NCBI GenBank assembly: GCA_020722005.1
Contig: DYLP01000014.1
Location: forward strand, 1 to 59,829
DNA: 59,829 nt
Direction: 5' to 3'
Source: Melioribacter roseus
Lineage (GTDB): Bacteria; Bacteroidota; Ignavibacteria; Ignavibacteriales; Melioribacteraceae
A program made the translations under genes and the position numbers. Shown here piece after piece: positions 22,201 to 29,625 of the stretch. The notes below the pieces were generated by a model that saw only the letters and a program-made list of their open reading frames with translations, was not told the origin of the DNA and did no database searches. Within the stretch, counting starts at the first letter, position 1; the number at the start of each line of letters is the position of its first letter.

Positions 22201-23950
22201 CAATTAAGAAGTCGATTTTTTCTGCCATCTTTTTCCAGAATTTCGTTCTCACTATTTTTGATTCGCTGGCATCGGTTTTAACTTCGATTACAGTGAGACG
22301 GCGGTTTGTGTAGGAAGTTTTCAGATATTGGATAAACTTAGCTTTGGAACTTGCAGTTATAAATTTACCGCCATATGCTTCGACAAATTTACGAAAGTTT
22401 ATATTAAGGGGTGTAATAAAATTTTCCCTGCAGATTTTTTCATAGCGCGAAATAGGAAGCGATTTAAAGATGCCTCCACCGTTGTTATTAATTAAAATGA
22501 CGGTCAGTGGAATTCCAAATTTCATTGAATTGTGGAGTCCATTCATATCGTGATAAAAAGCTATATCGCCTGTGATTAATAGAGTAGGTGATTTTGAAAC
22601 GGCGGAAATGCCAAGCGCTGTCGAGGTTATGCCGTCAATCCCACTCGCACCACGATTGCAATGTAATGTTATCTTGTTATTTTGATTCGATGCAAAAAAA
22701 TCAGTGTCCCTTATTGGCAGACTGTTTGAAACCATTACATCAAATTCACCATTAAGATTTTCGAATACAATGTCGGGTATTAATCCTTCAAAAGAAATTT
22801 TATTCTTTTTGAAGAATGATTTTTTTATTTCTTCAGCATCTTTGTTTAGCTTAATAATTTTATTGAACCATCTGCTCTCAGGAAAGCCTTTTAAAGTTTC
22901 GAGCGCTTTGATACAAAAATCATACGGCTGCACATTCAACACTGTTCTGGCTGTCAATGAAGGATCGAACCTGTCGCCATAACGATTGATTAGAATTTTT
23001 TTTGCCGATGAATCTCTGAAAAAATGAAGCACGATATTCGAAGTGGGCGTACCTCCAAATTGCAAAATAATTTCCGGATTGAAGAAGTCCCTGAATTTTT
23101 TTGAATGGAGCAGCGAAGTCAAATTTTCAATTATCGTGTCTTTACGATGATTTCCAAAACGATAACCCGAGGCTGCGTCGGCATAAATTGGATAACCGAG
23201 TTTTTTCGACAATCGTATTACTGCTTTTATAAATTTTGCATCATAATTATTGTAACCAAGCAAAATTAGTCCCCGACGATGGCTTTTCAGGTTATTGAAA
23301 ATGCTGTCGAGTTTAACAGTGTCGTTATTATGCGGTTTTAACTCGGAAAGTTTAATTGTAGATAATTTGTCGAGTAGGTTACTATCTATTTTGTCTGTGT
23401 AAGAATCGGGTTCAAAAGGTTTAGCAAAAGGGAAATTGATGTGTACAGGACCTCTATCATAACAATAAGAAATGTTAAATAGTTCATCCGCTGTTTTTAT
23501 TAATGATAGCAAGCTCGAATATTTAACCTCAGGAAGTCCGGCATCCTTGAATAATCTTATGTGATTTCGAAATATGTTATCCTGATAGATTGTTTGGTTT
23601 GCGCCGGAATTACGAAGCTCTGGAGGTCTATCGGCAGTACAAACGATTAAAGGGACACGCTGATAATAAGCCTCGATGATAGCAGGGTAAATTTCGGCTA
23701 CTGCAGTACCGGATGTAACCACAATAGCAGATGGATAGCCAGTTTTTTTTGACATTCCAAGTGCAAAAAAAGCAGCTGAGCGTTCGTCCACTATCTGAAA
23801 TGTTTTTATCTTTTTTGAATTTGTGAATGCAAATGTTAATGGAGTGCTGCGAGAACCTGGTGAGATTGTTGCATGCCTAACTCCTAATTTTTCAAGCCGC
23901 TTTACGAAAAGTTCACTCCAGAGAGTGTTCCGATTTACAGATATTTTCAT
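22181..23950 (-). CDS. menD: SEPHCHC synthase (2-succinyl-5-enolpyruvyl-6-hydroxy-3-cyclohexene-1-carboxylate synthase)
   Basis: Thiamine-diphosphate enzyme that joins isochorismate and 2-oxoglutarate. The N-terminal TPP-activating Glu sits in VDERSAAFFALG, followed by VTSGTAVAEIYPA and the ADRPPELR segment; the C-terminal Mg-TPP site lies around GDIAFYHDMNG and NNNGGGIF. Length 589 is typical. Its start overlaps the menF stop (ATGA). Confidence 0.96.
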   Translation of the reverse strand: MKISVNRNTLWSELFVKRLEKLGVRHATISPGSRSTPLTFAFTNSKKIKTFQIVDERSAAFFALGMSKKTGYPSAIVVTSGTAVAEIYPAIIEAYYQRVPLIVCTADRPPELRNSGANQTIYQDNIFRNHIRLFKDAGLPEVKYSSLLSLIKTADELFNISYCYDRGPVHINFPFAKPFEPDSYTDKIDSNLLDKLSTIKLSELKPHNNDTVKLDSIFNNLKSHRRGLILLGYNNYDAKFIKAVIRLSKKLGYPIYADAASGYRFGNHRKDTIIENLTSLLHSKKFRDFFNPEIILQFGGTPTSNIVLHFFRDSSAKKILINRYGDRFDPSLTARTVLNVQPYDFCIKALETLKGFPESRWFNKIIKLNKDAEEIKKSFFKKNKISFEGLIPDIVFENLNGEFDVMVSNSLPIRDTDFFASNQNNKITLHCNRGASGIDGITSTALGISAVSKSPTLLITGDIAFYHDMNGLHNSMKFGIPLTVILINNNGGGIFKSLPISRYEKICRENFITPLNINFRKFVEAYGGKFITASSKAKFIQYLKTSYTNRRLTVIEVKTDASESKIVRTKFWKKMAEKIDFLIDETENR

Positions 23951-25284
23951 GTGTAGAATAAATTAAGTATAGGTTTTAATTTTAGTTTTGTTTCATTGAA
24001 TTCTTCCATGCTATCCGAGCCAGCAACAATTCCGCTTCCGGCATAAAGATATAATTGATTATTTTTTATTAATCCGGAACGTATTGAAACCGTTAACTCG
24101 GCATTACCTTCAAGGTCTTTCCAGCCTAATACGCCTGCATAAAGTCCACGGTCGAACGTTTCAGATTTTTCGATTAGTTCAAGAGCTCGTTTCCTTGGTA
24201 AGCCGCAAACTGCGGGTGTCGGGAAAAGACTATTTATTAGTTCGTCAGTTGAAACCTCTTTATTTATGACAGACGTAACCGGCGTCCAAAGATGTTGAAT
24301 GTTTTGTAGCTTTTTTATTTTTGGTTTTTCTGGATAATGAATTTCAAAGCTGAATTTATTTATTTTATCTAAAATATATGAAAGCACAGCATTATGCTCG
24401 TATAAATTTTTAGAATCGTTAAGTAATTGAATTGCAATCGCTTCGTCTTCAATTTCGTCTTTGCCACGCTTAGCTGAGCCAGCCAGAGCGTCAATTGATA
24501 ATTTTTTCTCTCTAATCGAAATAAATTTTTCGGGAGAAGCTCCGAAAAAAATCGATTTATTACGACGCCATAAATATACATAACACTCGGGATATCTTTC
24601 CTCCAATCTTAATATTATTTGAGATAGGTCCACTTCTTTGTTAAATGTTTTTACGAGATATCTTGCCAGTACAACTTTATCTATATAACCTTTATTTATT
24701 TGCTCGAGTGCTGAGGCTATCTGTCGAGTCCACGTGTTGTAATCGACTTCACTGCCGATAAAATTTGTCGATTCGTCGGCCGACTTCTTATTTTCTGTCA
24801 GTTCATTTAATCTTTGGGATAAGAAATTTATTGAATCAATCTTTTTCTGAGGAGCACTATAGAAATTACTTGCCAGATAAAATTTGCTTTCGTTTTTAAT
24901 TAGGATAAATTCCGGCACAAACCATTCCTCTTTTTGAAAGCTGTTCCATAAATTTGTTTTTTGAGGCAGAGGAAACATAGCCCCGCCGAAGAAGGTTGGT
25001 ATTCGAGTATCAAGATTGATAGCGTGCTGTGAAATGAATTCTTTCCCGGTTTTGAATAAATTCCCGAAAGCAAGGAAAGATTTTTTTTCAGCAGGAGTAT
25101 TGAAGTAGAACCATGAGTTGATATCTTTTATTTTTTTAAATAAAGATTTATAACTCTTTTCGTCTATTTCATCTATATAGGAATAGACTATATTATTATT
25201 ATACGAGCTTTTAGTGTTGTAAGAATTAATAAAGTGCAAAAAATTTTTATTGTTATATATCAAATTTATTTTTAATTTTCTCAT
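23947..25284 (-). CDS. menF: Isochorismate synthase
   Basis: Chorismate-utilising enzyme that opens the menaquinone pathway. The C-terminal catalytic half carries VVLARYLVK, GASPEKFISI, LAGSAKRG, QHLWTPV, FPTPAVCGLPR and RGLYAGVLGW, all characteristic of isochorismate synthases. Length 445. First gene of the operon; a TATCTTTG box lies 33-40 bases upstream of its ATG and an inverted-repeat element sits beyond that. A 2,3-dihydroxybenzoate (siderophore) role is excluded by the men genes behind it. Confidence 0.94.
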   Translation of the reverse strand: MRKLKINLIYNNKNFLHFINSYNTKSSYNNNIVYSYIDEIDEKSYKSLFKKIKDINSWFYFNTPAEKKSFLAFGNLFKTGKEFISQHAINLDTRIPTFFGGAMFPLPQKTNLWNSFQKEEWFVPEFILIKNESKFYLASNFYSAPQKKIDSINFLSQRLNELTENKKSADESTNFIGSEVDYNTWTRQIASALEQINKGYIDKVVLARYLVKTFNKEVDLSQIILRLEERYPECYVYLWRRNKSIFFGASPEKFISIREKKLSIDALAGSAKRGKDEIEDEAIAIQLLNDSKNLYEHNAVLSYILDKINKFSFEIHYPEKPKIKKLQNIQHLWTPVTSVINKEVSTDELINSLFPTPAVCGLPRKRALELIEKSETFDRGLYAGVLGWKDLEGNAELTVSIRSGLIKNNQLYLYAGSGIVAGSDSMEEFNETKLKLKPILNLFYT

Positions 25285-25316
25285 AGAAAAATACTAAAAA
25301 AATACTAATTTATTAC

Positions 25317-25324
25317 CAAAGATA
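25317..25324 (-). promoter_or_regulatory. Putative -7 box (TATCTTTG) for the men operon
   Basis: On the minus strand about 33 bases before the menF ATG; fits TAnnTTTG. A TTG lies 25 bases upstream, slightly further than the usual spacing. The miniature element at 25372-25470 lies just upstream and could affect this promoter. Confidence 0.4.
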
Positions 25325-25365
25325 TAGAAAAAGAAAAATTGAGGAACGACAATTTAACTTTTTTT

Positions 25366-25371
25366 ATCAAT
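25366..25371 (+). repeat. Left target-site duplication ATCAAT
   Basis: Identical to 25471-25476 and immediately outside the inverted repeat arm. Confidence 0.7.
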
Positions 25372-25470
25372 GAGTCCGCTCTAAAAAGCATAAAATTGAA
25401 TTTTTAGGTTTTGAATTCAGACGATAATCAAAACATTTTTTCATCAAAATGACCTTTTTAGGGCGGACTC
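25372..25470. mobile_element. MITE-like element, 99 bp, with 17-bp terminal inverted repeats and 6-bp target duplication
   Basis: Left arm GAGTCCGCTCTAAAAAG (25372-25388) and right arm CTTTTTAGGGCGGACTC (25454-25470) are inverted repeats matching at 16 of 17 positions. The element is flanked on both sides by ATCAAT (25366-25371 and 25471-25476), as expected for a target-site duplication. There is no ORF inside; the 65-base centre is AT-rich. It lies between the divergent menF and marR genes. The terminal sequences imply mobilisation in trans by a transposase that recognises GAGTCCGC ends; none is in the window. Confidence 0.8.
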
Positions 25471-25476
25471 ATCAAT
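25471..25476 (+). repeat. Right target-site duplication ATCAAT
   Basis: Identical to 25366-25371 and immediately outside the right inverted repeat arm. Confidence 0.7.
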
Positions 25477-25577
25477 TAAATTTTATAAGTTATCATTCAG
25501 ATGAAAGAAACTCATATTTTTCTGAGGGATGGGGACCTGATTTTATCGATCGCTATAATTAAACTAAGGAGTAAATA

Positions 25578-26003
25578 ATGTTATCAGAAAAAACAGAAGC
25601 AGCTTTAAAGCTGATTGAAAAACTGAACCGTACTGCCGATAAAATTCGTAAGGTCCAGGCAAAATACGTATTCGAGAAGAATTTGACTTCGCCTCAATTT
25701 GCAGTTCTCGAAATACTGAGTCGAACTGGTCCGGTACCATTGAAAAGAATCAGCGACGAAATGATGGTAACCGGCGCCAACATAACCTGCGTCGTTGATA
25801 ATCTCGAAAAGGAAGGATTTGTACGGCGCGTTCACTCGAAAGAAGACCGAAGGGTTATATTGGGCGAGCTTACACCTGAAGGCAGGAAAAAGGTAGAAAG
25901 TATTTTGCCTGAGTACACAGAAAAATTAGCCAATCTTACTTCGGGGCTCACTGAAAGCGAGCAAAAACAATTGAGTGCCCTTCTGGATAAATTATTGCTC
26001 TAG
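25578..26003 (+). CDS. MarR family transcriptional regulator
   Basis: A 141-residue winged-helix dimer-type repressor. DNA-recognition part about residues 30-100: LTSPQFAVLEILSRTG, PLKRISDEMMVTGANITCVVDNLEKEGFVRR, and the wing HSKEDRRVILGELTPEG. Strong ribosome site (AAGGAG, 8 bases before ATG). MarR proteins usually respond to phenolic or aromatic ligands or oxidants and control themselves and divergent genes; here the divergent gene is menF, 293 bases away across the inverted-repeat element. Whether it regulates men genes is only a hypothesis. Its end overlaps prmA by 12 bases, tail to tail. Confidence 0.9.
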   Translation: MLSEKTEAALKLIEKLNRTADKIRKVQAKYVFEKNLTSPQFAVLEILSRTGPVPLKRISDEMMVTGANITCVVDNLEKEGFVRRVHSKEDRRVILGELTPEGRKKVESILPEYTEKLANLTSGLTESEQKQLSALLDKLLL

Positions 26004-28266: not shown

Positions 28267-29625
28267 CTAAAAATATTCTCTTTCCCTGAAGTCGACGCCG
28301 AGTTCTTCGACTACAAATTTCTTGGCTCGTTCGGCGTCTACACCATTGATGCCTACGATAGACATTACAACTCGTGAATATTTTTTAGCTTTGCGGGCAA
28401 AGTCGAGCATCTCTGCGTGCATTGAAGGATCGACTCGCATCAGTTTTGAGTACTGTTCAGGATCGACGGAATTCAAACTTATCGACACTACATCTATTAA
28501 CCCCTCGAGTTCCGGAGTAATATCGCGTTTGTTGATATAATTTCCGTGTCCGTCTGTGTTCAATCGTGTTTTGCCTCCGTTTTCTTTTACGTAACGTGCT
28601 ATTTCTTTTACAACGTCCCATCTAATTGTGGGTTCGCCATAGCCGCAAAACACTACTTCCTTATATAGTTTTGGGTCGCCAATTTCTTTGATGTAAACGT
28701 GAGCTTCAGGTTCTTCCGATTTTTTCATTTTAAGGTTATAGCCGTTAATAACAGCGTCGCCCTTCCTATCACAAAAGATACAATCTGCATTGCAACGGTT
28801 GGTTACATTTATGTAGAGTGAATTTCCTATTTTATACGTGAAACTAAGTTCCGGGTTCTTTCCGATACCGAAAAGCTTAAATGCATTATAGGAAGTTGTT
28901 CTTGCAACGTCTTCAACTGTTAGTTGATGAATTTCCGCAATCTTTTCGGCAATTAATCTTATATAAGCTGGCTCATTTCTTTTACCTCTGTGAGGTTCAG
29001 GTGTCATGAATGGCGAGTCGGTTTCAAGAAGCATATTTTCGACTGTAATCTTTTTGACGATATTTCTGAGTGAATTAGCTTTGCTGAATGTTATGTTTCC
29101 TGTAAAAGAAACGAATTGTTTCAATTCTATTAATCTGCGGGCTTCTTCCAGACTCCCTGAATAACAATGGAACTGACCTTTGAGAGGAGTGCCTTTATAT
29201 TTTTCAATAATCTTCATTAAATCTTCGGAAGCTTCACGGTTGTGTACGATAATTGGGAGTTTCCGTTCGAGTGCTAATTCAATTTGAGCTTCGAAGGCTT
29301 TGATTTGTTTTTCCTTGGTAGAAAAATCATAATAATAATCGAGGCCAATTTCGCCAATTGCAACGACTTTTTTGTGTTTTGATAATTCTCTCAAGTTATC
29401 GAGCAGTGAATCATTCCATTCATTTGTATCGTGTGGATGGATACCGACAGATGCATAAATGAAGTCGTATTTTTCTGCAAGATCGATTGCCTGAGCAGTC
29501 GAAGCAAGGTCGGTTGCAGGTACAAGGATGTAATCGACGCCGCTCTGGCGTGCTTTCTCGATTACATTTTCAAGGTCATCCTTAAAATTGGGATAGAATA
29601 AATGAGCGTGTGTATCTATAAACAT
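28267..29625 (-). CDS. Fusion of TatD-type metal-dependent hydrolase with TatD-associated radical SAM domain
   Basis: Residues 1-257 form a TatD nuclease: HAH (6-8), Glu92 in GEIGLDY, His128, His153 and Asp203 in LLETDSP are metal ligands. Residues about 265-452 form a short radical SAM protein: CNADCIFC gives the 4Fe-4S ligands Cys278, Cys282, Cys285, and CGYGEPT (327-333) is the SAM-binding GGE-like motif. Elsewhere these radical SAM proteins are usually separate genes next to tatD (the TatD-linked radical SAM family); here one ORF carries both without a break. The reaction of the radical SAM part is unknown. Between purM and dacB in one operon. Confidence 0.9.
   Translation of the reverse strand: MFIDTHAHLFYPNFKDDLENVIEKARQSGVDYILVPATDLASTAQAIDLAEKYDFIYASVGIHPHDTNEWNDSLLDNLRELSKHKKVVAIGEIGLDYYYDFSTKEKQIKAFEAQIELALERKLPIIVHNREASEDLMKIIEKYKGTPLKGQFHCYSGSLEEARRLIELKQFVSFTGNITFSKANSLRNIVKKITVENMLLETDSPFMTPEPHRGKRNEPAYIRLIAEKIAEIHQLTVEDVARTTSYNAFKLFGIGKNPELSFTYKIGNSLYINVTNRCNADCIFCDRKGDAVINGYNLKMKKSEEPEAHVYIKEIGDPKLYKEVVFCGYGEPTIRWDVVKEIARYVKENGGKTRLNTDGHGNYINKRDITPELEGLIDVVSISLNSVDPEQYSKLMRVDPSMHAEMLDFARKAKKYSRVVMSIVGINGVDAERAKKFVVEELGVDFREREYF

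Follow-up and report, generated by a model that had tools for sequence, protein, structure and literature searches.

A 99-bp miniature inverted-repeat element between menF and marR in Melioribacter roseus and its likely IS1182-like partner

The segment at 25372-25470 of the window (the whole stretch of 59,829 nucleotides analysed here, contig DYLP01000014.1 of Melioribacter roseus, GCA_020722005.1) is a genuine miniature inverted-repeat transposable element (MITE), belonging to a previously undescribed family of a familiar type. The element and its target duplication, an empty site in a related genome, related copies elsewhere, an insertion sequence (IS) whose ends match, and terminal sequences of the IS type in the window's own genome (G000) were all found directly. 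Judging from the terminal sequences, it is highly probable that an IS1182-like transposase, belonging to an IS with ends GAGTYYRCTCTAAAAAG, moved the 99-bp MITE in trans into a 6-bp ATNNAT target; we infer both the identity of the mobiliser and its action in trans.

The element, its setting and the empty site

The MITE is 99 bp long and has inverted ends of 17 bp that agree at 16/17 positions. The left terminal repeat, GAGTCCGCTCTAAAAAG (25372-25388, plus strand), agrees at every base with the left end of the IS in genomes G098 and G089, and the right one, CTTTTTAGGGCGGACTC / GAGTCCGCCCTAAAAAG (25454-25470, minus strand), has one mismatch against the left arm. ATCAAT stands directly outside both arms as a direct repeat (25366-25371 and 25471-25476). 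The first-pass annotation had already given these coordinates, the length, the match between the arms and both ATCAAT copies, and all of them were exact. The interior (25389-25453) is non-coding, and the ORF list of the window contains no ORF of at least 60 aa within the element. Counting pairs of 17-bp arms with at most one mismatch, the second arm starting within 500 bp and shifted registers being counted separately, we found 10 pairs in the real window, with an exact flanking hexamer repeat only at this element. Forty dinucleotide-shuffled windows gave a mean of 0.25 pairs, none of them with a flanking hexamer repeat.

The neighbouring genes are divergent. On one side lies a menF-type isochorismate synthase, the first gene of menF-menD-menH (23947-25284, minus strand), with its start codon 87 bp from the element, and on the other a MarR-family regulator (25578-26003, plus strand; PF01047), with its start codon at 107 bp. 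The isochorismate synthase (TIGR00543), MenD (TIGR00173) and MenH (TIGR03695) all score above the cut-offs of their models. Elsewhere in the window, a single ORF of 452 aa (28267-29625, minus strand) joins a TatD nuclease with a TatD-linked radical SAM domain (TIGR00010 and TIGR04038, above cut-off).

In G050, a genome of the same genus whose MarR is 94% identical to that of the window, the menF-marR gap aligns on both sides, lacks the element and keeps one hexamer, reading ...CCTTTTATCAATTAAATTT... with a single ATCAAT. The flanking DNA is about 79-81% identical between the two genomes. This is the empty site that had been anticipated for a related strain. Since the duplication in the window is intact, an insertion younger than the split between the window and G050 is favoured over the alternative, a precise loss in G050. 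The earlier view of the locus as a recent transposition of a non-autonomous element is thus supported by the empty site, by the other copies and by the IS with matching ends. Gene order is conserved as menD-menF-marR-prmA in 16 of 24 loci fetched by a MarR query. When 20 MarR loci were scanned for the end pattern with at most one mismatch, three matched (L063, L066 and L072), and none of the 20 had it within the menF-marR gap of distant relatives.

The insertion added 105 bp (the element plus one hexamer) to the spacer that separates the divergent genes; menF begins 87 bp from the element and marR 107 bp from it. A MITE placed in this way could have been recruited after its arrival by transposition and could now alter the expression of either gene, through promoter spacing, an outward promoter or a binding site, and regulation by bacterial MITEs, including via IHF sites, is among the subjects of a review (PMC10969869). 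We consider such a recruitment unlikely, and the change in menF or marR expression that the first-pass annotation had suggested is the one part of its reading to have gained no support. A sigma-70 scan of 25200-25650, with a model that may not suit this phylum, returned no promoter-like sites where shuffles lead one to expect 2.5. The DNA adjoining menF and marR is conserved in G050, and the core promoters may therefore have stayed intact. An effect on the control of the menaquinone genes, if true, would be of local interest only.

Copies in other genomes and their relationships

The window's own genome has a single full copy of the element; all further full copies were found in other genomes. 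Within the family, 16 of 79 genomes, the window's own included, gave a match at E<=0.001. Ten of these 16 genomes show only short partial matches at E no better than 7e-5, possibly due to chance; stronger partial matches come from G018 and G027, and full or near-full homologues from G066 (at least 11), G055 and G002. When the order was queried with a copy taken from a different family, 16 of 161 genomes were positive at E<=1e-8, again counting the window's own; they belong to two families and to 11 of the 67 genera. A class-wide draw gave 10 positives in 294 genomes, all inside the order. Copy numbers are lower bounds, being taken from the best candidates scored per genome (11 in the family, 5 in the order and 3 in the class).

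An alignment of twenty-one copies, 97 to 100 bp long, has a mean column identity of 86%. It contains the copies with both ends recognisable and leaves out L108, L109 and L127, as well as a second, damaged copy in L222. Single-base indels distinguish some of the aligned copies. Across the alignment, the interiors are 65-83% identical to that of the window element. The interior is homologous to those found in other genera and in another family, and its best conserved block is AATCAAAACATTTTTTCATCA (25424-25444), where many columns are invariant or nearly so. In all 19 loci compared, similarity to the window is confined to the element and the flanks are unlike (E 1e-3), while the same comparison does match the window flanks to the syntenic locus of G050.

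Among the 20 other aligned copies, the closest to that of the window belong to another family, namely those of G100 (88% identical) and G091 (86%). Identities range from 74 to 88% for the copies of the other family (n=7) and from 73 to 83% for those of the window's own family (n=13). In a tree of 26 copies, which lacks five of ten extra copies that the end pattern failed to recover, the four rows nearest to the window comprise three from the other family and one from its own (G055), and a constraint grouping the 14 own-family copies was rejected (p-AU 0.027). Because the closest copy belongs to a different family, these comparisons suggest that the 99-bp family may travel horizontally between bacterial families. 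The alternative is that ancient subfamilies were sorted by loss. On the tree the family labels form clusters (3 changes, compared with 8.8 in shuffles, 0 of 500 being as low), which argues against free mixing between families; this clustering is owed largely to the 11 copies of G066, and 3 of the 23 inner branches are well supported. As a tentative proposal, which we think less probable than not by a good margin, the copies could form a MITE lineage that travels horizontally throughout the order. Selection would then preserve its length and its inner block AATCAAAACATTTTTTCATCA, the block being no passive filler but a second site required for transposition (for example, a subterminal site for the transposase or for a nucleoid protein), and several IS1182-like transposases of Ignavibacteriales would share it.

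Other miniature elements have ends of this kind. Similar ends and 6-bp duplications surround quite different interiors at L111, L289, L314, L318, L151 and L281, including the palindromes GTCATTCCC..GGGAATG and GTCATTCTGA..GAAGAATC, which we take to resemble dispersed repeats of other bacteria. Ends of the MITE type may work as a cassette into which palindromic repeats are taken up. Further miniature families whose ends are related to these occur in G044 (L261-L272), where elements are often 176 bp long, in G025 (L273-L280), with elements of 99 and about 206 bp and one arm reading GAGGCGTATCTAAAAAG, and in G138 (L297), with a length of 169 bp.

A probable partner insertion sequence with matching ends

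The likely mobiliser is an IS1182-like IS of 1.88-1.90 kb, the partnership being deduced from the ends and partly from the form of the duplication. Two such elements, each with ends matching the MITE and a single long gene, were found in G098 (C36, 320-2220; 1901 bp) and G089 (C668, 3-1880; 1878 bp), with the left end GAGTCCGC and the right end GAGTTCAC. A near relative in G099 (C197) measures 1892 bp end to end and is flanked by the duplication ATGAAT. The two ends can be told apart in all three genomes, the left one running to ...AAAAAGC and the right one being GAGTTCAC...AAAAAGG. A transposase gene flanked by the MITE's ends, as the first-pass annotation had proposed, is thus present in G098 and G089, with a near relative in G099, and the same end types occur in the window's own genome.

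The reading frames of the two transposases, P0002 (530 aa) and P0003 (527 aa), are uninterrupted. Both score above the Pfam cut-offs for PF13751 (DDE_Tnp_1_6) and PF05598 (DUF772), and their best NCBIfam model is that of IS1182 (NF033551), with 94.3 and 111.1 bits, below its cut-off of 270. Relatives at E<=1e-30 were detected in 12 of 156 genomes of the order; three are distant, at 27-30% identity, and some are broken. The end pattern in its exact form, GAGTYYRCTCTAAAAAGS, occurs in 33 of 160 genomes of the order, with a backward control of 0 in every row listed, and in the looser form GAGTCTGCTCTAAAAAG, allowing up to two mismatches, in 42 of 75 genomes of the family, where the control gave 0 to 2 per genome, so single matches mean little. 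Viral contigs gave one exact end match, with no partner end in the stretch examined beside it.

In the assembly of G000 (79 contigs), 41 distinct flanks near contig ends bear the ends of one repeated IS. Distinguished by the asymmetry between left and right, these are 17 distinct left-end and 24 right-end flanks, and the contigs break about 5-83 bp inside the repeat. A search of the same assembly for the transposase gave no match to P0002 at E 1e-30. The genome of the window perhaps carries 17-24 copies of the IS with matching ends, to judge from these fragments, visible only as contig ends, and the repeated IS is a likely cause of much of the fragmentation of G000. When left and right ends were paired by their hexamers, 13 of the 17 left ends found a match at 6 bp, a pairing that is ambiguous because the flanks are AT-rich.

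We collected 46 short elements of up to 250 bp with the same end type, from several subfamilies and excluding one element of 409 bp among 47. Identical hexamers flank 37 of them, a share conditioned on at least 5/6 agreement, since the elements had been chosen with no more than one mismatch between the flanking hexamers. Of these 37 duplications, 28 have the form ATNNAT, against a background of about 1% of positions, taken from the window alone. Around the IS ends in the window's own genome, the hexamer is ATNNAT in 11/17 left and 14/24 right flanks (25/41 together). Where both flanks of IS-like copies could be read, the hexamers agree exactly in two of six (G099 and the distant G162), are one base off in G098, and disagree in G080, G061 and the truncated G148.

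Under the mechanism that we propose, the DDE transposase of the IS1182-like IS would recognise both 17-bp ends of the MITE in trans, move the 99 bp and join them to a 6-bp staggered ATNNAT target, and gap repair at this target would leave the two ATCAAT copies. The MITE does not appear to be an internal-deletion derivative of the IS, an origin that we rejected for want of a convincing alignment between the interiors (best z of 3.4 among 18 comparisons). Since its interior does not convincingly resemble that of the IS, the MITE may have originated in another relative. An interior ORF on the minus strand, MKKCFDY.., was also discarded as a transposase remnant: single-base indels break its frame in some copies, and P0002 and P0003 begin with MFKKNTKHTQ.

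Mobilisation by another IS family, such as IS1634, is very unlikely. It was suggested by a 507-aa IS1634 transposase lying near an end GAGCCTACTCTAAAAAG in G066 (C106). This transposase and three relatives (L242, L246 and L250) have the terminal sequence TCCTGTTTTGTGC, not GAGTC, and we dropped this candidate as its own ends differ from those of the MITE, which the IS1182-like elements bear directly. The G066 scaffold, moreover, contains an N gap and repeated ends, and the neighbourhood of IS1634 and the end is probably accidental. At this locus (L221, G066:C106:11200-16000), the same end sequence of about 100 bp stands on both sides of the IS1634 gene, probably as a result of a misjoin at the repeat. 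A transposase of the PF01609 type, found next to an end in G002, was set aside as well, since it belongs to a separate IS that has ends of its own. This second IS (L165, G002:C9:73700-79800) has the ends GAGGCTGTGTGAAAAG with TTAA on both sides, and lies apparently inside another miniature element with ends of the MITE type.

Folding, significance and known systems

That the segment is a native, fixed hairpin or attenuator regulating the menaquinone operon or marR is extremely unlikely, even though it lies between two divergent genes and folds strongly (z of -7.5 as RNA and -6.6 as DNA), as the inverted ends by themselves produce a strong single-strand fold. The element is missing from the corresponding gap of G050, and its end pattern from every menF-marR gap among the 20 distant loci scanned. 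A lone copy in an arrangement shared with distant relatives, which would have pointed to such a hairpin, is not what was found, given the copies elsewhere and a locus arrangement that is not conserved. Rfam returned no family at its gathering score, the three weak matches (two microRNA families and one snoRNA family) reaching 19.6-25.3 bits where 45-135 are needed. In the consensus fold of the 21 copies (RNAalifold), 12 pairs are retained, all in the terminal repeats, with no inner hairpin and a covariation term of -0.18. At two of the 12 pairs both positions have changed, in each case in five copies (G066 copies, and for one pair also G002), which can also be explained by one protein recognising both ends. 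A regulatory RNA was accordingly rejected, as Rfam, the single folds and the consensus fold revealed only the terminal repeats.

What started as a guess from the sequence alone is now a documented insertion, with the element, an empty site, sister copies and a probable mobiliser. The MITE family could serve as a marker of recent DNA exchange among uncultured Ignavibacteriales, and its partner IS offers a likely explanation for the breakage of such genomes into contigs. From the conserved interior arises a testable question, namely what the movement of a bacterial MITE needs besides its ends.

No description of this MITE family, or of three forms of its end sequence, was found in the literature searched, most subscription literature being outside its scope; papers that name both 'Ignavibacteri' and 'MITEs' appear to be microbiome or environmental studies. 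Nezha and other bacterial MITEs have the same general architecture. MITEAba12 of Moraxellaceae, in another host group, has likewise been reported as a MITE family found across a bacterial family (PMC6382973). With respect to the IS1182 family itself (NF033551, PF13751, PF05598), the partner transposase scores best there, below the NCBI cut-off, whereas the window element has no transposase. Among the closest parallels are the MITEs assigned to ISMac2, an IS1182 element of Methanosarcina acetivorans (PMC3852290). They too are short and non-coding, with ends matching an IS of the IS1182 family and little similarity to it past those ends. A mismatch between MITE and IS interiors is common: the same paper reports conservation of the borders alone between the archaeal MITEs that it covers and their partners. 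Compared by description, the ISMac2 MITEs are archaeal and measure 160-169 bp, with ends of 25-26 bp and duplications of 4 or 0 bp (PMC3852290), whereas the window MITE has a bacterial host, 99 bp, ends of 17 bp and 6-bp ATNNAT duplications.
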